Shown here piece by piece: positions 8,819 through 23,817 of a stretch of DNA of 28,373 nucleotides. The position numbers and the translations under genes were made by a program. The DNA lies in the IMG/VR virus record IMGVR_UViG_3300032220_001749, positions 1 through 28,373 of that record; one strand, written 5' to 3'. Position 1 is the stretch's first letter. Each line of letters starts with the position of its first letter. This DNA comes from a virus. The notes under the pieces were generated by a model. That model saw only the letters and a program-made list of their open reading frames with translations, was not told the DNA's origin and did no database searches.

Positions 8819-9724
8819 ATGCATAAAGTATACTACGATTTGTTAGATCGTGATCCAGAAGTTAAATCTGAAACTTATTGGTCACATGATAGTGGTCGGG
8901 AAAAACCTGAATATAATAGATTCATGCATGAAAAGTCTAGACTAATATCGGTGTCTCCTATCGAAATGGCAGATTATGTTATGTTACCAGTTAAATGGTC
9001 TAACAGTCTCAGTTCATTGCAAACCAATACACTATTAGAAGCTAAAAAACATAACAAAAAAATCATAGCATTTTTCAATGATGATTATGATGGTAACATT
9101 CAGACACCAACTGAAAACTTCTATTTATTTCGCACGTCTACATACGCCAGCAAGATAAGGCAAAATGAAATTATAATGCCAGCTTTCTGTGAGGAATTTG
9201 AATACGTAAAGCCTACAGAAAAGGCATTAAAAAATGCTGTAATAAGTTTCTGTGGCAATGTTAGAGATCCACATCGATATCCTATCTTTGGTGAACTAGA
9301 AAAGAACTATAATTTATGCAAAAACTTTTTATATCGTAATGGGTTTTGGGCTCCGGAGATATCAGACAAAACACTAGCAAGAAAAGAATTCGTAGCAAAC
9401 GTTCGCAGTGGACTTTTCGGTATATGCATAAGAGGTAATGGTAATTTCTCATATCGTTTATATGAAACTTTAGCTCTTGGTAGGATACCAATAATAATCA
9501 ACTCTGATTTAAAATTGCCGTTGGAAAAAGTTATAAATTGGCAAAGACAAGCTATTATTTGTGAGTCGCATGAGATTGGTGAGTTACATAATAGAATTGA
9601 GCAATACATTAAAAATTTAAACGTTCTAGATATATGCTATGAGAACAAGTTGATCTATGATGAATATTTTTCACCATATGGATTGATTAAGCATTTAGAA
9701 CTTTATTTGAAAGAAACAACATGA
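8819..9724 (+). CDS. Exostosin-like (GT47-type) glycosyltransferase
   Basis: The diagnostic stretch lies at residues 205-226: RGNGNFSYRLYETLALGR followed by IPIII and then SDLKLP, the exostosin C-terminal donor-binding signature. ISFCGNVRDPHR (142-153) opens the second Rossmann half. In eukaryotes exostosins build heparan sulfate; in bacteria and phages the domain is found in capsule and LPS clusters, where the transferred sugar is usually unknown. The ATG at 8819 has no good Shine-Dalgarno sequence within 15 bases, so initiation may be weak or the start may be wrong. It ends in an ATGA overlap with the aminotransferase gene. Confidence 0.78.
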   Translation: MHKVYYDLLDRDPEVKSETYWSHDSGREKPEYNRFMHEKSRLISVSPIEMADYVMLPVKWSNSLSSLQTNTLLEAKKHNKKIIAFFNDDYDGNIQTPTENFYLFRTSTYASKIRQNEIIMPAFCEEFEYVKPTEKALKNAVISFCGNVRDPHRYPIFGELEKNYNLCKNFLYRNGFWAPEISDKTLARKEFVANVRSGLFGICIRGNGNFSYRLYETLALGRIPIIINSDLKLPLEKVINWQRQAIICESHEIGELHNRIEQYIKNLNVLDICYENKLIYDEYFSPYGLIKHLELYLKETT

Positions 9725-10764
9725 AATTTGTCGATTTATACGCAGAGAACAATTCATTTAAAAAAGAAATTAATGAAGAATTAACGACTGTTTATAATGC
9801 CGGATGCTATTTGCTAGGACCGAAGCTAGAAAGACTAGAAAACGAATTTTCTAAAAAGATTGGCGTTGCATATGGTGTAGGTGTTAAAAATTGCACCGAT
9901 GCAATTACGATGCTTGTAAAGAAGCTTCATAGCAATAATATGCCAATCATACTGCCAAATTTTGGCGCATATCCTACGTCTGTTGCTTGTAGAAATATCA
10001 CAGACAACATTCATTATGTTGATGTAGATGCATCAATGACAATTGATCCGAATAAATTGCCAGATGTAAAAAATGGTATTGTAATCCCAGTTCATCTTTT
10101 TGGAAACAATTGTCAAATCGATAAGATTAAAAAATATTGCAAAGACAATAACCATATTCTTATAGAGGACTGTGCCCAATCTACCGGCTCTGGATGCGGG
10201 AAAGATGGAGACTATTCTGTATTTAGCTTCTATCCAACCAAACCACTAGGTTCGATGGGTGATGGTGGGATGATATGCCTTAACAGTAAGGATGAAGCTG
10301 AATACTTTAAGAAGTATCGCTTCTACGGACAAAACAACGGCGTAGTAGAGTTTGTTGGAATCAACAGTAGAATGGACGAGATGCAGGCTTCTATTGTTTT
10401 AGCTAAACTATCAAAGTTTGAATCTCTTAATGAAAAAAGAAATGAAATTGCCAATCGCTACAAAAAGATCGTAAAAGGATATAGAGTCAATACCAATTCG
10501 GTATATCATCTCTTCACAGTTATGTTTGAAAATCGTGACGATGTAATCAAAGAGATGAATACCAGAGGTATACCTCACATGGTTCATTATAAAGCTCACG
10601 TGACCGACTACACAGCCCTTCAAGGCATAAACAATAACAACGTTGGTGTTCGAGTTTCTGATAAAATTTTATCTATACCTTGTCATCCATATCTAAAGGA
10701 GAACGAAATACAAAAAGTTGAAGAATTTTTGAACTCAGTAAAGGATAAAGAATATGCTATCTAA
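9721..10764 (+). CDS. DegT/DnrJ/EryC1/StrS-type sugar aminotransferase
   Basis: This PLP enzyme transaminates a keto group on a nucleotide-linked sugar. The start FVDLYAENNSF, the GPKLERLENEF helix (33-43), the IEDCAQSTG segment with Asp150 and Gln153 contacting PLP, and the FYPTKPLGSMGDGGM motif with Lys174 as the Schiff-base lysine are all present. Length (347 aa) is slightly below the usual 360-390. The next gene overlaps it by 11 bases and encodes an FdtA-type 3,4-ketoisomerase, the partner of FdtB-type 3-aminotransferases. A 3-amino-3,6-dideoxy sugar is therefore the natural prediction, although GDP-4-keto-6-deoxymannose from the downstream Gmd could also be its substrate (perosamine-type). 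No acetyltransferase is evident. Confidence 0.9.
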   Translation: MKFVDLYAENNSFKKEINEELTTVYNAGCYLLGPKLERLENEFSKKIGVAYGVGVKNCTDAITMLVKKLHSNNMPIILPNFGAYPTSVACRNITDNIHYVDVDASMTIDPNKLPDVKNGIVIPVHLFGNNCQIDKIKKYCKDNNHILIEDCAQSTGSGCGKDGDYSVFSFYPTKPLGSMGDGGMICLNSKDEAEYFKKYRFYGQNNGVVEFVGINSRMDEMQASIVLAKLSKFESLNEKRNEIANRYKKIVKGYRVNTNSVYHLFTVMFENRDDVIKEMNTRGIPHMVHYKAHVTDYTALQGINNNNVGVRVSDKILSIPCHPYLKENEIQKVEEFLNSVKDKEYAI

Positions 10765-11143
10765 GCTAGAAGGTAAGCGTGATAGCAGGGGAGTTTTATA
10801 TCCTTTTGAATTTAAAAAACTTAACTTTGAACCGAAAAGAATGTTCTTTATTAAAGACGTTCCAGAGGGAGATATTAGAGGCGAACACGCACATAAAGAA
10901 ACAGATCAAATAATATTTTGTCTACAAGGCTCTGTAGAAATAAGCTTATTTGATGGTGTTGAAAAAGAAACACATATCCTTATGGAAGGAGATTATGTGT
11001 TTGAAAAGCGAATGACGTGGACGACTTTAAAGTTCGTTAAACCAGAAAGTATATTAATGGTCACATCTTCTAAAGGATATGACCCAGAAGACTACATAAG
11101 AGACTATAGCACATTTATTAACTCAGTAAAAAAGAGAGGTTGA
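10754..11143 (+). CDS. FdtA/WxcM-like nucleotide-sugar 3,4-ketoisomerase (cupin)
   Basis: This 129-aa cupin has the family hallmarks: DSRGVLYPFEF near the start, RMFFIKDVP (29-37), RGEHAHKETDQ with catalytic His45 and His47, LQGSVEISLFDG (57-68), and the closing YDPEDYIRDYSTFI. Members move the keto group of dTDP-4-keto-6-deoxyglucose from C4 to C3 before a DegT enzyme aminates it. The 11-base overlap with the DegT gene supports that partnership. The dTDP-sugar enzymes RmlA and RmlB are not in the window, so the substrate must be made by the host, by phage genes elsewhere, or be the GDP-linked 4-keto sugar from Gmd. Confidence 0.9.
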   Translation: MLSKLEGKRDSRGVLYPFEFKKLNFEPKRMFFIKDVPEGDIRGEHAHKETDQIIFCLQGSVEISLFDGVEKETHILMEGDYVFEKRMTWTTLKFVKPESILMVTSSKGYDPEDYIRDYSTFINSVKKRG

Positions 11144-12674: not shown

Positions 12675-12755
12675 ATGGTATTTGGTACTTGGAGTATTGA
12701 TAAAGCCGTATTTGACTGGATGATAGAGCACCTTCCAGAAGGAACAACGTCATGA
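12675..12755 (+). pseudogene. N-terminal remnant of a class I methyltransferase gene
   Basis: A 26-codon frame, MVFGTWSIDKAVFDWMIEHL then PEGTTS and a TGA, has a proper ribosome binding site: AGGAGA at 12663-12668, six bases before the ATG at 12675 (an in-frame ATG at 12669 is too close). The text FGTWS...FDWMIEHLPEGTT reads like the first residues of small SAM methyltransferases, in which LPEGxT is directly followed by the ILELGSG SAM loop. Here the frame stops exactly where that loop should begin, in an ATGA overlap with the next gene. I infer that a methyltransferase body was lost by recombination. A leader peptide coupling translation of the next gene is the alternative. Confidence 0.5.
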
Positions 12756-13420
12756 CAAAAAAAAGAGTAGCAATATTATATACTGGAATCGTGCGACCAA
12801 GCCCAGAACGTGTTTATAACAATATATGTAACACTATAAGCTATTTAACTGCTTTAAATTTAGATATATCAAGTTTTTGCTTAACATATGACACCCAAGA
12901 GGCGAACATATTAATTGATCTTTTAAAAGATATTGATATCGCTGTTCACATCATTCCATTTATTAAGGATGCGCCAGGTAATGCAAATGGAAATCAATAT
13001 AGGATGATGAAAACAAATGAATTGTTAGTTTCGAAGATTAACAATTTAATAGATTACGACATTGTATTAAGAATGCGAATTGATTGTGAACTAGCATATA
13101 TAGAAATTCCTGATGCTATAGAACAAAACGTTTTATATGCACCAGTCACTTTATGGAATGATGGAATATTTGACAATTTATCTTTTTGTGTGCCCAGTTT
13201 ATATAGACAAATATGGAATACTGAAATGAATTCATTTTCTTTTATTAATAACGAAAAGATGTTAGAACATAAAATGTTGCTTGCTAATGCGACTAATAAG
13301 CCTTTTAACTTTAAGCTTAATTTATATCAATCATCAGACCCTACATTTATGGGAATTCCGCAATGGTCTAAAGCAAATAGAATATTTGAATACAAAAATG
13401 GTTGGATACGTATAGAATAA
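12752..13420 (+). CDS. WavE-like putative LPS-synthesis/glycosyltransferase protein
   Basis: The 222-aa protein starts RVAILYTGIVRP, a first strand with an Arg-Pro turn. It has NQYRMMKTNELLV (81-93) and then DIVLRMRIDCEL (103-114). This N-x-x-R-x-x-x-T...(L/M)R-x-R-x-D arrangement is that of the WavE lipopolysaccharide-synthesis group, where the Arg-x-Asp takes the place of a DxD donor motif. Identification is moderate; the protein is shorter than typical WavE members. The likely Shine-Dalgarno (AGAAGGA, around 12736-12742) lies inside the upstream methyltransferase remnant, so the remnant supplies its translation signal. Confidence 0.55.
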   Translation: MTKKRVAILYTGIVRPSPERVYNNICNTISYLTALNLDISSFCLTYDTQEANILIDLLKDIDIAVHIIPFIKDAPGNANGNQYRMMKTNELLVSKINNLIDYDIVLRMRIDCELAYIEIPDAIEQNVLYAPVTLWNDGIFDNLSFCVPSLYRQIWNTEMNSFSFINNEKMLEHKMLLANATNKPFNFKLNLYQSSDPTFMGIPQWSKANRIFEYKNGWIRIE

Positions 13421-13426
13421 TGCATT

Positions 13427-14401
13427 ATGACATATCTTATAACAGGTGAAAACGGACTTTTAGGTCATGCTCTCAAAAATATACTAAGAGAAAGAAACAT
13501 CCAATCGATTGGGCTTAGTAAGAGAGTTTTAAATTTGAGCGATTCTGCTGAGACATATAAGTATTTTAGTAAATTCGAAGCGGTTGATGGGCAGGGCTTA
13601 TATAGTAATATATCTTGCGTTTTTCATCTCGCAGCTAAAGTAGGCGGTGTTAAAGCAAACCAAGATTCATTAGGAACGTTTTATCATGAAAATATAATGA
13701 TCAATTCAAACGTATTAGAATCATGTGTAAAGCATAGTATACTAAAAGTAGTTTCCGTATTGTCTACTTGTGTATATCCAGACGCTCCATATGTCTCCTA
13801 TCCGCTCACAGAAGACCAGTTACACCTCGGTCCTCCACATGATAGCAACTTCGGTTATGCTTACGCTAAAAGGATGCTGGACGTGCAAACGAGGGCTTAT
13901 CGTAAGCAGTATGGGGTCAACTATATTACTGTCATTCCAAATAATCTATTTGGAGAATATGACAACTTTCATTTAGAAGATGGACACGTCATTCCAGCTC
14001 TTATGAGAAAGATCTGGGAAGCTAAACTTAATAATAAACCTACTGTAGAAATATGGGGAGATGGTAGACCATTGAGAGAATTTACTTACTCCGGAGATGT
14101 TGCCCGTATACTCCTTAAAGTTTCAGAAGAATATAACGAAGAACAACCGCTTAACATTGGCAACACGGAAGAACATTCTATTTCTTCTGTAGCGATGAAG
14201 CTTGTTGAATTTCTTGAATACGATGGGAAGTTAGTTTTTAATACCGACAAACCATCTGGTCAATTTAGAAAGCCATCTTCCAATAAGAGGCTATTAGAAA
14301 AAACAAGTTGGCGTGCAGAAGACTATACTCCATTTGATATTGCTTTAAAGAAAACCTGTGATTGGTTTAAAGCAACATATCCAAATGTAAGAGGAGTATA
14401 A
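13427..14401 (+). CDS. fcl: GDP-L-fucose synthase
   Basis: This enzyme epimerises and reduces GDP-4-keto-6-deoxymannose (the Gmd product) to GDP-L-fucose with NADPH. The short-chain dehydrogenase fold is clear: TGENGLLG (6-13), [13 protein letters not shown] (66-78), LSTCVYP (112-118), the YAYAK catalytic pair Tyr144/Lys148, and [11 protein letters not shown] (171-181). Cys115 and His187 stand where the family's epimerisation acid/base residues are expected. Length (324 aa) is normal. The gene sits directly before gmd and shares one base with it (TAATG at 14399-14403). The usual order in bacterial clusters is gmd-fcl; here it is reversed. Confidence 0.94.
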
Positions 14402-15384
14402 TGTCAATACAAAAGACTGCGTTTATAACTGGCGTAACCGGTCAGGATGGTTCTTATTTAGCTAAACTTCTTCTTGATAAAGGTTATCGTGTTATTGGAA
14501 TGAAGCGTAGAACTTCTCTTATCAATACAAACCGCCTTGATGATATAGAAGTTTTTAATCATCCAAACTTCAAACTTGAATATGGGAATATGACTGATTC
14601 AATTTCTCTTTATGCTTTGCTCATGAAGCACAAGCCTGATGAAATATATAACCTTGCTGCACAGAGCCATGTACGGGTTTCCTTTGAGGTTCCTGAAGAA
14701 ACCCTAGACGTAGTAGGTGGCGGAACTTTGAAGCTTTTAGAGGCTTATAGGCTAATCTGTCCGCAAGCACGTTTCTATCAAGCATCATCCTCGGAGATGT
14801 ATGGGGATAACATTAATATTCCTCAAAATGAGGAAACACGTATGACCCCGGCGAGCCCGTATGCTGCTGCGAAACTATATGCACATAACCTTTGCCGCAA
14901 TTATCGTGAGAGCTATGGTCTTCATATATCATCTGGCATATTGTTTAACCATGAAAGTCCAGTAAGAGGTGAAACGTTTGTAACTCGCAAGATTACTCTT
15001 GCCGCAGCTAATATAAAGCTTGGCAAACAAGAAACGTTATATCTTGGAAACCTTGATGCGAAGAGGGATTGGGGTTTTGCTGGAGACTATGTTGAGGCAA
15101 TGTGGTTAATGCTTCAGCAACCAAAAGGTGATGATTATGTGATTGCTACTGGAGAAACACATACAGTTGGTGAATTCCTACGTGTTATATTTGATTATGC
15201 CGGTTTAGACGTTAACAAACACGTTAAAATCGATTCACGACTATATCGTCCACATGAAGTTCCAATTTTGCTTGGCGATAGTTCTAAAGCCGAAAGGATT
15301 TTAGGTTGGAAACCAAAGACAACATTTCGTGGTTTAGCTGAGATGATGTATGATGCGGACTATGATAGAGCTTTAAATCTTTGA
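14401..15384 (+). CDS. gmd: GDP-mannose 4,6-dehydratase
   Basis: Gmd converts GDP-D-mannose to GDP-4-keto-6-deoxy-D-mannose using bound [15 protein letters not shown] (10-20) is the dinucleotide loop, NLAAQSHV (84-91) the family signature, Ser130 and Glu132 in QASSSEMYG the dehydration residues, YAAAK the Tyr154/Lys158 pair, and FNHESPVRG (182-190) the GDP-mannose-binding segment. All are canonical and length (327 aa) is slightly below the usual 340-370. Its product can feed the adjacent fucose synthase and possibly the DegT aminotransferase. GDP-mannose itself would have to come from the host, since no ManC or ManB is present in the window. An AT-rich 98-base gap follows. Confidence 0.95.
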
Positions 15385-15482: not shown

Positions 15483-16220
15483 ATGGATTCGAATAATATT
15501 AACATTATAATCCCAATGGCTGGACTTGGAAGTAGATTTCAGAATTCTGGGTTTATTGTTCCTAAGCCTCTTATCGACATCAATGGAATTCCCATGATAG
15601 TAAAAGCTATTACCAGTCTTGATATCGAAGGAAATTACTTTTTTATTATAAGTAAGAATAATTACTCAGAAAAAATAAAAGAACTTATTTTAGCAGTTAA
15701 GCCAAAAAGTATTTTTCATGAGATTGATTACACAACTGAAGGTCCGGCATGTAGTGTTTTACTACATAAATCACACATTGACAATGACAATGAATTAATC
15801 ATTGCAAATTGTGATCAAATAATGACTTGGAATAGTGATTATTTTTTGCACAATGTACGTCTTTATGATGGAGCTGTTGTAACCTATCATACGAATACAA
15901 ATAAAAATAGCTATGCCAAGGTTTCAAGAAAAGGCTCAGTATTACAAATAAAAGAGAAAGAAGTTATAAGTAATATAAGCTTGAATGGAATTCATTATTG
16001 GAAAAAGGGTCGATATTTTATATCTAGCGTAGAGGAAATGATATCCAAACAAGATAGAGCAGTTAATGGCGAATATTATATTGGACCCAGCTATAATTAT
16101 ATGATTAAAAATGGATATAATGTTGGTATATATCATATACCAAACGAGTATCATCATTCAGTTGGTGTACCGGAGGATTTACAAAAATATTTAAACTATG
16201 AAAAAAACTCAATTATCTGA
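15483..16220 (+). CDS. Sugar-phosphate-type nucleotidyltransferase
   Basis: The 245-aa protein has the nucleotidyltransferase GT-A core: IIPMAGLGSRF (9-19) as the NTP loop with the trailing KPL (Lys28), TEGPACSVL (85-93), the metal-binding ANCDQ with Asp111, YAKV (144-147), and a C-terminal SVGVPEDL motif. These enzymes join a phosphorylated sugar, polyol or other small acceptor to NMP, releasing pyrophosphate. Nucleotide and acceptor cannot be read by eye. It begins the four-gene cassette with the cupin, RuBisCO-like and phosphodiesterase-like genes, and the cupin start lies 23 bases inside its 3' end. The natural proposal is that it activates the product of the RuBisCO-like step. Confidence 0.85.
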   Translation: MDSNNINIIIPMAGLGSRFQNSGFIVPKPLIDINGIPMIVKAITSLDIEGNYFFIISKNNYSEKIKELILAVKPKSIFHEIDYTTEGPACSVLLHKSHIDNDNELIIANCDQIMTWNSDYFLHNVRLYDGAVVTYHTNTNKNSYAKVSRKGSVLQIKEKEVISNISLNGIHYWKKGRYFISSVEEMISKQDRAVNGEYYIGPSYNYMIKNGYNVGIYHIPNEYHHSVGVPEDLQKYLNYEKNSII

Positions 16221-16521
16221 TATGTATAGGGGATGGTTTATTGGAAATTTTCAACCATCTGTATTCGAAACAAAAGATTTCGAAGTAGGAATCTTAACTC
16301 ATAAAAAAGATGAAATCTGGCCAAAACATTATCATGCTATAGCTACAGAATATAACGTTCTGATTTCGGGTTCAATGACAATCAAAAATGAACTGATTAG
16401 CGCCGGAACAATATTTTCGCTAGAACCTAATGAAATTGCAAATCCAACATTTCATGAAGATTGTATAATAGTTTGTATAAAGATGCCTAGCATACCAGGG
16501 GATAAATATGAAGTTTTTTAA
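16198..16521 (+). CDS. Small single-domain cupin
   Basis: The 107-aa protein is one cupin barrel. KHYHAIATEY gives His44-x-His46 and Glu51, and His86 in TFHEDC completes the classical three-His-one-Glu metal site. LISGSM (55-60) and LEPNEI (75-80) are the usual turn and second-motif strands. Cupins this small act as isomerases, epimerases, lyases or dioxygenases, or as sugar-binding stability domains; the intact metal ligands favour catalysis. It overlaps the nucleotidyltransferase by 23 bases and the RuBisCO-like gene by 14, so all three are almost surely made together. It differs from the FdtA-type cupin at 10754, which lacks this ligand set. Confidence 0.75.
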   Translation: MKKTQLSDMYRGWFIGNFQPSVFETKDFEVGILTHKKDEIWPKHYHAIATEYNVLISGSMTIKNELISAGTIFSLEPNEIANPTFHEDCIIVCIKMPSIPGDKYEVF

Positions 16522-17701
16522 TACGGACATTCTAAAAAAAAAATATTTTGTTGCTACATACCAAATCAAAACAACACCAAAAGGCGATCTTCGTAAAGCT
16601 GCTTGGGAATTAGCTATTGGTCAAAGTGTAGGAAATCCAAACGTAAGAAATCAATGGGAAACTGAAGAAATATTTGAAATGTCTTCATGTGTAATCCTTC
16701 ACGATGAAGGTGAATTGATTGGTAAAACAGATGGAATTGTTAAAATAGGATTCCCAATCATTAATACTGATTGGGAAGGCGATGGAATTAGTCATCTGTT
16801 ATGTCAAGTAATGGGTGGTCAAATGGATATTGAAACATTTGATGCTTGTCGTCTTATCGGATTAGAATTTCCTGATTCTGTAAAGGCGAATTTTTTAGGT
16901 CCAAAATATGGCATTAATGGAATGAGAAAATTCGTTAACAGCTATGAGAAACCTTTTAGTGGCGCAATAATAAAACCAAAGACCGGTATTACTCCAGAAG
17001 TTTTATTAAATATGGTCAAAGAATTGGTTGATGGCGGCGTCGATTTTATAAAAGAAGATGAAATATTAGCAAATCCAAGTTTTTGTACAATTCAAAAACG
17101 TGTTCCATTAATTTCAAATTATCTTCAATCTTGTGGCAGAAAAGTAGTTTATTGTGTTTGTATTAATGGTGATCATGATCATATTTTGAAAAGAGCAAAA
17201 TTAGTGTCTGAACTTGGAGGAAATGGAATTCATATTAATTTCTGGTCTGGATTCGGTGTATATAATGCAGTAAGAAAGCTTAATTTGCCATTGTTCTTGC
17301 ACTTTCAAAAAAGTGGGGATAAGGTTATTACAGATAAGCGTCATGCATTTGGAATTGACTGGTCAGTTATATGTCAATTAGCTGGTATGATGGGAGTGGA
17401 TACCATCCATGCAGGAATGTGGGGAGGGTATTTGAGCGATGATATCAATGAACTTTCTAATGTAATATCTACTCTACATTCTCACAATGTAGTTCCAGCA
17501 TTAAGCTGTGGTATGCATCCAGGATTAGTACAAGCAAATAAAAAACAATTTGGTAATGATTTTATTGCCAATGTAGGTGGAGCAATTCACGGACACCCTA
17601 TGGGCACATTGTCTGGCGCTAAAGCAATGCGACAGGCAATTGATGGAAATCATGATGTTGAATATTATGAAGGCATTAAAAAATGGGGATTGATTAGATG
17701 A
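16508..17701 (+). CDS. RuBisCO-like protein (form IV type)
   Basis: The 397-aa protein aligns by eye along the RuBisCO large subunit, N-terminal domain then barrel. Conserved: GAIIKPKTG with Lys156/Lys158 (spinach Lys175/177), FIKEDE with Lys182, Asp184 and Glu185 (carbamylated Lys201 and metal ligands Asp203/Glu204), IHAG His301 (His327), Ser333 (Ser379) and VGGAIHGHP (phosphate loop Gly403/404). Changed: the loop-6 Lys334 position is Tyr308 in GMWGGYLS, the Asn123 position is Gly104, and the barrel HxHR is HFQK. Carboxylase activity is therefore unlikely. Form IV proteins enolise, isomerise or decarboxylate phosphorylated ketoses and keto-acids. It shares ends with the cupin (14 bases) and the phosphodiesterase-like gene (ATGA). 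Which reaction it catalyses is unknown. Confidence 0.9.
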   Translation: MKFFNTDILKKKYFVATYQIKTTPKGDLRKAAWELAIGQSVGNPNVRNQWETEEIFEMSSCVILHDEGELIGKTDGIVKIGFPIINTDWEGDGISHLLCQVMGGQMDIETFDACRLIGLEFPDSVKANFLGPKYGINGMRKFVNSYEKPFSGAIIKPKTGITPEVLLNMVKELVDGGVDFIKEDEILANPSFCTIQKRVPLISNYLQSCGRKVVYCVCINGDHDHILKRAKLVSELGGNGIHINFWSGFGVYNAVRKLNLPLFLHFQKSGDKVITDKRHAFGIDWSVICQLAGMMGVDTIHAGMWGGYLSDDINELSNVISTLHSHNVVPALSCGMHPGLVQANKKQFGNDFIANVGGAIHGHPMGTLSGAKAMRQAIDGNHDVEYYEGIKKWGLIR

Positions 17702-18162
17702 GATTAATAGCTCATAGAGGGAATTGGGCTGGAAAACAACTCGAGTTTGAGAACAGACCAGATTATATATTATCTGCCGTTAAATACGGATATGATGCCG
17801 AAGTGGATTTGTGGCTACAGAACGATATACAGTATCTCGGCCACGATGCACCAGAATATTCAATTAATGAAATGTTTCTAATAAATCTTAATAAAAATCT
17901 TTGGATCCATGCTAAAAATATTGCCGCCATAGAATGGCTATCTAAAACCAATCTTCATTGGTTCTGGCATGAGAACGATAAAATAACTATGACCAATAAA
18001 GGATACATTTGGACATATCCAGAAGTGTTTATATCAAATAGTATTATCAATCAACCATCTGACAACTCTTTATTTTGGAACGATAAGCTTTGGAAAAATA
18101 CTGACTTTATTGGAATCTGTCATGATGATTTGAACTCATGTAAAACTAAATTTTCGCAATAA
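17698..18162 (+). CDS. Short glycerophosphodiester phosphodiesterase-like protein
   Basis: The 154-aa protein has the GDPD active-site set in its N-terminal half: IAHRG (His6, Arg7), ENRP (Glu18-Asn19), EVDLW (Glu35, Asp37, metal ligands) and LGHD (His49). LWIHAKN (68-74) and GYIWTYP (102-108) are the next barrel strands, also seen in GDPD-like proteins of capsule clusters. It is much shorter than the usual 230-300 aa, so the barrel is probably trimmed rather than broken, as the ligands are intact. It could cleave a phosphodiester intermediate or edit a nucleotide-activated product. It ends the overlapping cassette; 62 AT-rich bases follow. Confidence 0.78.
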   Translation: MRLIAHRGNWAGKQLEFENRPDYILSAVKYGYDAEVDLWLQNDIQYLGHDAPEYSINEMFLINLNKNLWIHAKNIAAIEWLSKTNLHWFWHENDKITMTNKGYIWTYPEVFISNSIINQPSDNSLFWNDKLWKNTDFIGICHDDLNSCKTKFSQ

Positions 18163-22045: not shown

Positions 22046-22528
22046 ATGGCAAAGAAAAATATACCTGTTTATCAACCCGCCGCTCCATCATTTGAGCTAC
22101 CCACTCCTCCAGAAGAACCTGACACAACTGGATTAGAGGTTGGATTTCGGCGTCCAAATATAGATGAATTGGACAATAAGATTAATCAACAGCTCCATGA
22201 TTTCTCTTCTCTTCTTAATCAGATATCATCTGTAGAAGACAAGCAGAAGGCGCTCTGGAAGCAAATCTATGAGAACTCGGTGCAAGACCGTAAGAATGCC
22301 TACATCATGTGGATAGACCTTTATGGTTATGTCCATGCGAACCCTAATGAGCACGCTATTCATGGTCAAAACTTATCTCGTTACATGGAACGTATGAGTA
22401 AGGCAAATGATCAAATACTTAAGTTAACTGAATTGGTATCTAAGGCAAGCGAAGAAGACTTAGATGATATGATGTCTGAAGAAGACATATATGACAAAAT
22501 TCAAAAAACAACAGGCATGAAACAATGA
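22046..22528 (+). CDS. Coiled-coil hypothetical protein
   Basis: The ATG at 22046 is preferred over the GTG at 22019, which lies inside the inverted repeat. The 160-aa product begins with a Pro-rich low-complexity arm (YQPAAPSFELPTPPEEP, 9-25), then long charged helices with heptads (DELDNKINQQLHDFSSLLNQ and after), a central WIDLYGYV segment, and an acidic C-terminus (EEDLDDMMSEEDIYDK). I recognise no family. A small phage structural or terminase-associated protein would fit this composition and place, but nothing specific shows it. The gene overlaps the ligase-like gene by ATGA. Confidence 0.7.
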   Translation: MAKKNIPVYQPAAPSFELPTPPEEPDTTGLEVGFRRPNIDELDNKINQQLHDFSSLLNQISSVEDKQKALWKQIYENSVQDRKNAYIMWIDLYGYVHANPNEHAIHGQNLSRYMERMSKANDQILKLTELVSKASEEDLDDMMSEEDIYDKIQKTTGMKQ

Positions 22529-23817
22529 GCTCAGTAAAAAGACAAAAGGTTATCAAGCAGATAAAAGATGTTTTACTTCCTACCATTCTCGAACAGATAG
22601 CCGAGGGCGGTCTTGGTGGGCATATGTCTCACGTCCATGAGGATTACAATCTAACCTTTGGAGAAATAAAAGCTATATTTCAGCAAGCCAGCAAGGGTAA
22701 GTTAGAGAACGTGTCAGAAAAACTTGATGGACAAAACGTATTCTTTACGTTTACTCCAGCAGAAGGATTAAGATTTGCTCGTAATACCGGTCATATTAAA
22801 ACAAATGGAATGGGGGCAGATGAGATTGAAACAAGATGGGCAGACAAGCCACGGGTCGCTGCTGTATTTGGAAAAGCCTATAAGGTGCTATCAGCCGCTA
22901 TAGCATCGTTATCTCCAGCAGATAGAGCCGCTATCTTCAATGATGGCAAGATTTGGTATTCAGCAGAGATAGTAGGCACCCTTAATCCTAATGTTATAAA
23001 CTATGATCAAGATGCCGTTGTGTTTCACGAAAGTGGAAATGTATATGATGAAAATGGTCAACCATTAAACATAGACACCAGCAAAAATTTTGCAAAGCTT
23101 GTTGCAACTACAAATCGTATGCAAGCTGCAATAAAAGATAGTGGCTGGAAAGTGTCCGGACCGGTTATGGTTTCATTGCAAAAGCTATCAAATAATGAGC
23201 CATTAGAAATGGCTATTGCCGGATTAAATGGCGTCATGAACAGTTATAGTATGACCAATGACAATACTCTTGGCGAAATGTTTGAAGAATATGTTATTTC
23301 TGAACGGATGAAAGATATTATAGCTGATGACGATACCAAAAGTTATCTTGCTGAACTTGTATCAGATTTTGAAAAAAATCTTACCAGCAAAAAGCCAATA
23401 TTAGAAGATTTAGTTAAAGAGGGATTGGTGCAAAAGGAACAAGTTAAAGATATTGTTGACCTTATAAGAAATGGCACCGTTCTTTATAATGAAGCGACCG
23501 ACACAGTAAGATTTATAATAAAAAATTTCGCTGAAGATATTTTAAAAGGCGTTGCAAGTTATCTTATTATAAATCCGGACAAGGAAGTTCAACGCCTAAG
23601 AGGCGAAGTTGAAAAGTCTATAGAAACCATTAGAACTGCTGGGACAGAACATTCAAATGAAGTAATGAAAAAAGAATTGTCCCGTTTAGGAAATGTTGAT
23701 AACATTACAAGTTCCATGGAAGGTATTGTTTTTAAATACGGCGGCAAGGTATATAAGTTAACCGGGGCATTTGCTCCAGTTAATCAATTGCTTGGAATAG
23801 CCAAATATGGTCGATAA
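22525..23817 (+). CDS. Ligase/nucleotidyltransferase-fold protein (RNA-ligase-like motifs)
   Basis: The 430-aa protein shows the ordered motifs of covalent nucleotidyltransferases: SEKLDGQN with Lys66-x-Asp68-Gly69 (motif I nucleophile), RFARN (83-87, motif Ia/Arg), WYSAEIVG with Glu148 (motif III/IIIa type), MEGIVFKY with Glu399-Gly400 (motif IV), and YKLTG with Lys411 (motif V). A large helical insert, about 160-390, separates III from IV, far longer than in T4 RNA ligases or DNA ligases. HMSHVHEDYNLTFGE (33-47) is a conserved-looking N-terminal segment, and related proteins are, as I recall, found in T4-like cyanophages without assigned function. It may seal RNA or DNA, or be a fold reused structurally near the baseplate genes. 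Confidence 0.7.
   Translation: MSSVKRQKVIKQIKDVLLPTILEQIAEGGLGGHMSHVHEDYNLTFGEIKAIFQQASKGKLENVSEKLDGQNVFFTFTPAEGLRFARNTGHIKTNGMGADEIETRWADKPRVAAVFGKAYKVLSAAIASLSPADRAAIFNDGKIWYSAEIVGTLNPNVINYDQDAVVFHESGNVYDENGQPLNIDTSKNFAKLVATTNRMQAAIKDSGWKVSGPVMVSLQKLSNNEPLEMAIAGLNGVMNSYSMTNDNTLGEMFEEYVISERMKDIIADDDTKSYLAELVSDFEKNLTSKKPILEDLVKEGLVQKEQVKDIVDLIRNGTVLYNEATDTVRFIIKNFAEDILKGVASYLIINPDKEVQRLRGEVEKSIETIRTAGTEHSNEVMKKELSRLGNVDNITSSMEGIVFKYGGKVYKLTGAFAPVNQLLGIAKYGR

Follow-up and report, generated by a model that had tools for sequence, protein, structure and literature searches.

A gene module built on a RuBisCO-like protein and a nucleotidyltransferase in a predicted phage glycan island

Why would a phage carry a relative of RuBisCO among genes for building glycans? 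The question is raised by IMG/VR virus record IMGVR_UViG_3300032220_001749, analysed here over its whole 28,373 bases, which we call the window. Four plus-strand open reading frames (ORFs) at 15483-18162 encode a nucleotidyltransferase (NT), a cupin, a RuBisCO-like protein (RLP) and a shortened glycerophosphodiester phosphodiesterase (mini-GDPD). The ORF calls place neighbouring genes in overlap by 23, 14 and 4 bases, exactly as an earlier reading of the bare DNA (the original prediction) had it, with the same ORF coordinates and strand, and homologue alignments back the start codons of all four genes. We find that RLP and NT are the smallest core of a module shared by viruses, bacteria and archaea, and that the RLP belongs to a distinct, fully supported branch of the RuBisCO superfamily. 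Given this association and the pattern of residue conservation, the best reading is that the RLP would feed a phosphorylated ketose-derived unit to the NT.

A separate RuBisCO branch with an altered active site

The RLP (16508..17701, + strand, 397 aa) is placed in the RuBisCO superfamily by both its profile and its predicted fold. It matches PF00016 with E=5.6e-42 (144.5 bits against a cut-off of 30.1), and its AlphaFold2 (AF2) model, with a pLDDT of 91.2, is best matched by the form III archaeal RuBisCO 2cwx_E (Z 44.1, 2.4 Å over 382 residues), in a tie with MtnW 2oem (Z 44.0); identity to form III archaeal RuBisCO is about 26%. The narrower equivalog models score far below their cut-offs: 131.7 bits against 513.6 for salvage_mtnW, 152.7 against 700 for OiaX, and similarly for form III RuBisCO. 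In a midpoint-rooted maximum-likelihood tree of 62 rows, in which some reference rows are partial and the Rhodospirillum rubrum sequences are left out, the cassette-type RLPs form a single clade with support of 100/100 and a stem of 1.03, separate from MtnW, the MtnA-linked RLP L104, 3qfw, OiaX/3nwr-like RLPs and form I/III RuBisCOs.

An RLP beside a cupin recalls R. rubrum, where the 5-methylthioribulose-1-phosphate (MTRu-1P) isomerase RLP Rru_A1998, of the DeepYkr type, works with the cupin Rru_A2000 in the methylthioadenosine (MTA)-isoprenoid shunt (PMC4958253), likewise by enolate chemistry on a pentulose phosphate. On the strength of that genuine pair, the phage RLP might be an auxiliary methionine-salvage gene, acting with the cupin as a 2,3-diketo-5-methylthiopentyl-1-phosphate (DK-MTP-1P) enolase or MTRu-1P isomerase. 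We consider this extremely unlikely. The R. rubrum pair has methionine-salvage partners and neither nucleotidyltransferase nor GDPD, whereas the phage clade, in a tree without the R. rubrum sequences themselves, lies apart from MtnW, 3qfw and the MtnA-linked L104. Over more than 100 RLP loci, the recurring neighbour families include no recognised mtn gene, MtnA having been picked out by eye beside the outgroup L104 only, and the cupin profile matches no structure named as a methylthioxylulose-5-phosphate (MTXu-5P) methylsulfurylase at E<10. Score, clade and neighbours together led us to reject an MtnW identity, so that the placement of the RLP outside methionine salvage, on which the original prediction depended, holds.

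An identity with OiaX or another isoapionate RLP was rejected on its score and on the separation of the clade from 3nwr-type RLPs. OiaX (3-oxo-isoapionate-4-phosphate decarboxylase) and its relatives resemble the phage protein in being RuBisCO-superfamily members, with a sugar-acid phosphate as substrate, but in OiaX-like rows K177 is Ser and K334 is kept, whereas the phage clade has Lys at K177 and Tyr at K334. Separately, a gammaproteobacterial protein (L117, 1498-3279) joins an RLP to a class II aldolase domain (PF00596, 4.9e-36) and groups with MtnW; it is probably an MtnW-MtnB fusion.

In all 22 clade members checked, K175, K177, K201, D203, E204, S379, G381 and G403 are invariant; in the window RLP, K175/K177 are K156/K158 and K201/D203/E204 are K182-D184-E185. 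The same 22 members share an equally invariant set of substitutions, with T65 and W66 changed to N and P (N43/P44 in the window RLP), H294 to Q (Q267), K334 to Y (Y308) and G380 to C (C334), and the N123 position or region is changed in every one. An intact metal and base set combined with a fixed new signature indicates that these RLPs are active enzymes with a single conserved, non-carboxylating chemistry. That a phage RuBisCO fixes CO2 during infection is barely credible: the fold is right and the carbamate lysine and metal triad are intact, but in place of the carboxylation lysine K334 every sampled member has Tyr, H294, T65, W66 and the N123 region are changed as well, and no phosphoribulokinase was seen in the module. 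With this residue set lost, a carboxylating RuBisCO of forms I-III was rejected, and the likeness to form III archaeal RuBisCO, the best structural match, does not extend to the carboxylation residues. The P2 phosphate site is altered as well (R295 to K/S, H327 to H/Q), which suggests a monophosphate substrate.

The clade may correspond to the IV-GOS RLPs, environmental marine RLPs with no assigned function (PMC10173188), or to unassigned Global Ocean Sampling (GOS) RuBisCO groups, 65 sequences of which cluster with no known RuBisCO (Yooseph 2007, PMC1821046). As read here, these two papers link the GOS groups to no phage, NT, cupin or GDPD. Literature searches, with the principal RLP reviews outside their range, returned nothing relevant on a phage RLP or on an RLP with a nucleotidyltransferase, in line with the earlier statement that such a pairing has no described role.

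Partners of the RLP in viruses and cells

Relatives of the RLP are encoded on at least 225 viral contig stretches, the best 80 being 57-74% identical, and in 0 of 50,697 cultured-phage records. Cellular relatives are rare, with 24 loci in a pattern-limited scan of 84,980 species genomes, a count that includes a few outgroups or probable phage contigs. Sampled surveys found the RLP in 2/297 genomes of the SAR11 family, 4/22 in the genus Legionella and 1/337 in the class of Azospirillum, and in one genome each of a Bacteroidota class, Verrucomicrobiota and Elusimicrobiota. The SAR11 copy L085 lies within a 232-kb contig and is therefore chromosomal. Matches from an archaeal phylum survey (E 1e-50 to 1e-62) were taken for ordinary form III RuBisCOs and left out of the clade counts.

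Across 58 viral loci that have 3 kb of flank to either side, NT accompanies the RLP in 57, the cupin in 49, the GDPD in 49, and all three partners in 39. The order is NT-cupin-RLP-GDPD in 38 of the 58 loci and GDPD-NT-RLP, without the cupin, in 9. After dereplication at 90% identity the figures are 22/23 for NT, 21/23 for the cupin, 19/23 for the GDPD and 16/23 for all three. The same families adjoin bacterial and archaeal RLPs of just 37-47% identity, as GDPD-RLP-cupin-NT in Azospirillum and Elusimicrobia, GDPD-NT-RLP-NT in SAR11 and NT-GDPD-RLP-NT in Verrucomicrobia. Partners that are kept while gene order changes are strong evidence for a shared pathway, and a neighbourhood repeated in viruses, bacteria and archaea shows that the four-gene grouping is not chance; the association of RLP, NT, cupin and GDPD is real and old. 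The expectation that the four families would recur in the same order was thus right for their co-occurrence in viruses, and for order in the 38 loci, but cellular loci are rearranged. That the four genes form one unit is borne out by their co-inheritance in viruses and several cellular phyla.

The genes might nonetheless be separate enzymes that merely share an island, compatibly regulated but with no common pathway, since phage glycan islands reshuffle genes heavily and NT with GDPD is widespread without an RLP. This is very unlikely, because the RLP almost never occurs without NT in viruses, Alpha- and Gammaproteobacteria, Elusimicrobia, Verrucomicrobia and archaea, through varied gene orders.

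Four Legionella species retain RLP and NT alone, with a divergently oriented LicD gene (PF04991, 3e-43) adjoining, and the LicD/RLP/NT trio stays intact while the flank beyond NT varies. Outside Legionella, no LicD was found among the loci examined. As the cupin is missing here and from the GDPD-NT-RLP loci, it is dispensable, and the constant core is RLP with NT rather than RLP with cupin. The original prediction, which had RLP and cupin as the converting pair, is thus partly supported: the module, its glycan context and the non-salvage RLP hold, with its reaction order and a phosphodiesterase that trims or edits the product still hypothetical. The cupin itself (16198..16521, + strand, 107 aa) has a weak Pfam match (Cupin_7) and a match to phrog_24762 at 2.3e-31, and its alignment has motif 1, HxHx4Ex6G, and lacks the usual His of motif 2.

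None of 37 members of the mini-GDPD family (17698..18162, + strand, 154 aa in the window) matches PF03009 or any other Pfam family; the full-length GDPDs in Verrucomicrobia and Nanoarchaeia loci, including the partners at the deep-branch loci L095 and L090, do match PF03009. The AF2 model of the mini-GDPD (pLDDT 93.5) matches a GDPD end to end (7e0v, VIA-align Z 11.3, 148 residues, 3.2 Å), all of the 38 best VIA rows, from Z 11.3 down to 7.5, belong to GDPD/PLD-type barrels or GDPD-like domains, and Foldseek gives a probability of 1.00 to 1zcc. The homologue alignment conserves H6-R7, E18-N19, E35/D37, H49-D50 and H71-x-K73, with both catalytic His (H6, H49), E35 and D37 of E-x-D and the Lys K73 invariant, and where ExK would have its Glu, all members seem to carry His (H71). 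The protein is thus predicted to be a compact GDPD barrel that keeps most catalytic residues, in agreement with the short GDPD-like call made from the DNA.

GDPDs act by hydrolysis, the known RLPs of OiaX type work in catabolism and the cupin is weakly similar to KdgF, all of which would suit a scavenging route in which the mini-GDPD cuts a phosphodiester of the host, the sugar phosphate set free is broken down by cupin and RLP, and NT is incidental. Such a route is distinctly unlikely, since NT is the most constant partner, kept in viruses as well as in SAR11, Legionella and archaea, whereas loci may lack the GDPD or the cupin, and the surrounding glycosyltransferases and nucleotide-sugar enzymes are biosynthetic.

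Several further neighbours were seen. By eye, the Azospirillum module is followed by genes reading as CysD and CysN/C of the phosphoadenosine phosphosulfate (PAPS)-synthesis type, and the Elusimicrobia module by ABC transporter, GmhA-like and HldE-like genes. At loci of SAR11, Verrucomicrobia and Nanoarchaeia (L088-L094, L090, L095), the GDPD is accompanied by a second nucleotidyltransferase, NT2. In a viral subgroup (L020, L022, L026 and L036-type loci) an APH-like kinase, a dehydroquinate (DHQ)-synthase-like cyclase (PF01761, 5.2e-37) and a short-chain dehydrogenase/reductase (SDR) come after the RLP. A WavE/DUF7796-like gene was rejected as an RLP-specific fifth member, being equally common without the RLP.

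What the nucleotidyltransferase may activate

The NT (15483..16220, + strand, 245 aa) belongs to a GT-A-type nucleotidylyltransferase family related to PDB 4evw. Its NTP_transf_3 match is weak (1.8e-4, under the Pfam cut-off), that to phrog_3980 is 1.7e-57, and its nearest solved relative by profile is 4evw (5.5e-35), followed by sugar-1-phosphate nucleotidyltransferases. The motifs GxGxRF and PKPL are conserved, and G14, G16, R18, K28, D111 and E158-K159 are invariant or nearly so, a pattern that fits the GT-A sugar nucleotidyltransferase motif set.

Cultured cyanophages without an RLP carry the same NT family, mostly with the GDPD and sometimes with the cupin. Here the NT is fused to other enzymes: to an RpiB-like domain (PF02502, 3.9e-32; 49 contigs), as in Bellamy and, judged by length and similarity, SynMITS9220M01; to DHBP synthase in S-SKS1 (PF00926, 5.4e-65); and to a HAD phosphatase in S-CAM9. 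PfkB-like kinase, aldolase and GmhA-like genes lie near these fusions. Ribulose-5-phosphate is handled by both RpiB and DHBP synthase, which would make the RLP slot that of a pentulose-phosphate enzyme feeding the NT; by this analogy, the RLP seems to occupy the place of such an enzyme. The Bellamy and S-SKS1 systems share the NT family with the phage cassette, and the Bellamy type also the GDPD and cupin families, but where the cassette has its RLP they have an RpiB or RibB domain, a kinase and HAD. The cyanophage fusions to RpiB, DHBP synthase and HAD (L156-L161, L242-L292) adjoin the same mini-GDPD, and these loci look like parallel sugar-activation modules.

A heptose route would use some of the same genes differently, with the RLP replacing or supplementing GmhA to give a heptose or heptulose phosphate and an HddC-like NT making NDP-heptose. 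The NT profile does weakly match the HddC-like '6-deoxy-D-mannoheptose pathway protein' 6jq8 (7e-8), several cyanophages have GmhA-like genes close to NT, the Elusimicrobia locus contains GmhA/HldE-like genes, and NT is fused to HAD phosphatases. We judge this route unlikely: GmhA-like genes are mostly at RLP-less loci, the RpiB and DHBP-synthase fusions indicate pentulose phosphates, and no heptose kinase is a constant RLP neighbour.

On the preferred reading, of RLP feeding NT, the RLP would act as an isomerase or epimerase rather than a carboxylase, enolising a ketose monophosphate, probably of pentulose or tetrulose type, bound by the kept P1 phosphate-site glycines. The NT would link a nucleotide, most likely CMP, to the phosphorylated product, and a transferase would pass this unit to a glycan, perhaps through a phosphodiester: LicD in Legionella, and WavE-/DUF7796-type enzymes or glycosyltransferases elsewhere. 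The mini-GDPD may cut a phosphodiester of the route or release its precursor, and the cupin, which some lineages do without, may assist as an isomerase or epimerase. LicD-family enzymes transfer phosphorylated alcohols from CDP carriers, and with LicD beside RLP and NT in Legionella, CTP and a phosphodiester product are favoured. LicC/LicD and CDP-ribitol-type routes likewise have a nucleotidyltransferase that activates a small phosphorylated unit before glycan transfer, and they share this LicD link; they differ in having no RLP, and the phage NT is nearest to 4evw.

Several points weigh against this proposal. LicD was seen in Legionella alone, where it stands beside the operon rather than within it; WavE/DUF7796-type neighbours are no rarer at NT loci without an RLP (44/71) than at those with one (7/15). 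The RpiB fusions belong mostly to a single cyanophage lineage (68-100% identity) and so represent few independent events. By eye, the second-metal Asp of RmlA-type enzymes is absent from the NT alignment and 4evw has GVP there; with both lacking this Asp, nucleotidyl transfer is assumed. The P2-site changes are no proof of a monophosphate. Substrate and nucleotide, like the order of steps and the GDPD and cupin roles, are what we infer from this pattern. That the cassette is a real glycan-biosynthesis module is well supported; that its enzymes produce an unusual small phosphorylated sugar unit and activate it for use in a surface glycan we put at even chances.

The glycan island and its wider meaning

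The window carries T4-like baseplate genes (phrog_219) and a long series of glycosyltransferases and nucleotide-sugar enzymes, and by these sequence matches the phage is T4-like and the cassette lies in its glycan island, a setting that the original prediction had also given. Upstream on the + strand are a 222-aa protein with no family given (12752-13420), an NAD epimerase (13427-14401) and, directly before the cassette, a GDP-mannose dehydratase family gene (14401-15384); GT4-type glycosyltransferases follow from 18225. At 9721-11143, a DegT aminotransferase precedes an FdtA-type ketoisomerase, possibly a pair for a 3-amino-deoxyhexose; this FdtA cupin is not the cassette cupin. Elsewhere in the window are a 5'-truncated IMP dehydrogenase/GMP reductase family gene of purine metabolism (1-870; PF00478, 1.9e-72), a PD-(D/E)XK nuclease-type protein with a Cys-rich C-terminus (877-1842; PF12705, 2.8e-16) and a weak RNA_ligase match with a KLDG motif (22525-23817; PF09414, 9.5e-4, under cut-off).

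The baseplate protein is at best about 31% identical to those of Flavobacterium and Microcystis phages. A 3.3-kb contig in a Crocinitomicaceae metagenome-assembled genome (L082, DORI01000002.1) shares 99.6% identity with the window cassette across 3.07 kb; it is probably a phage contig inside that genome, and possibly a hint at the phage host.

We know of no reaction for most form IV RuBisCOs. With NT as a constant partner in viruses, bacteria and archaea, the function of this RLP becomes a direct two-enzyme question. Our fuller proposal, tentative and a little short of even odds, is that this undescribed, mainly viral RuBisCO branch carries out a new enolate reaction that provides cell-surface glycans with a C4/C5 ketose in nucleotide-activated form, or with a unit made from such a ketose. 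If true, this would be the first RuBisCO-fold enzyme of glycan biosynthesis, RuBisCO chemistry would take in glycan building alongside carbon fixation and catabolism, and phages would bring new sugar chemistry for remodelling host or virion surfaces.

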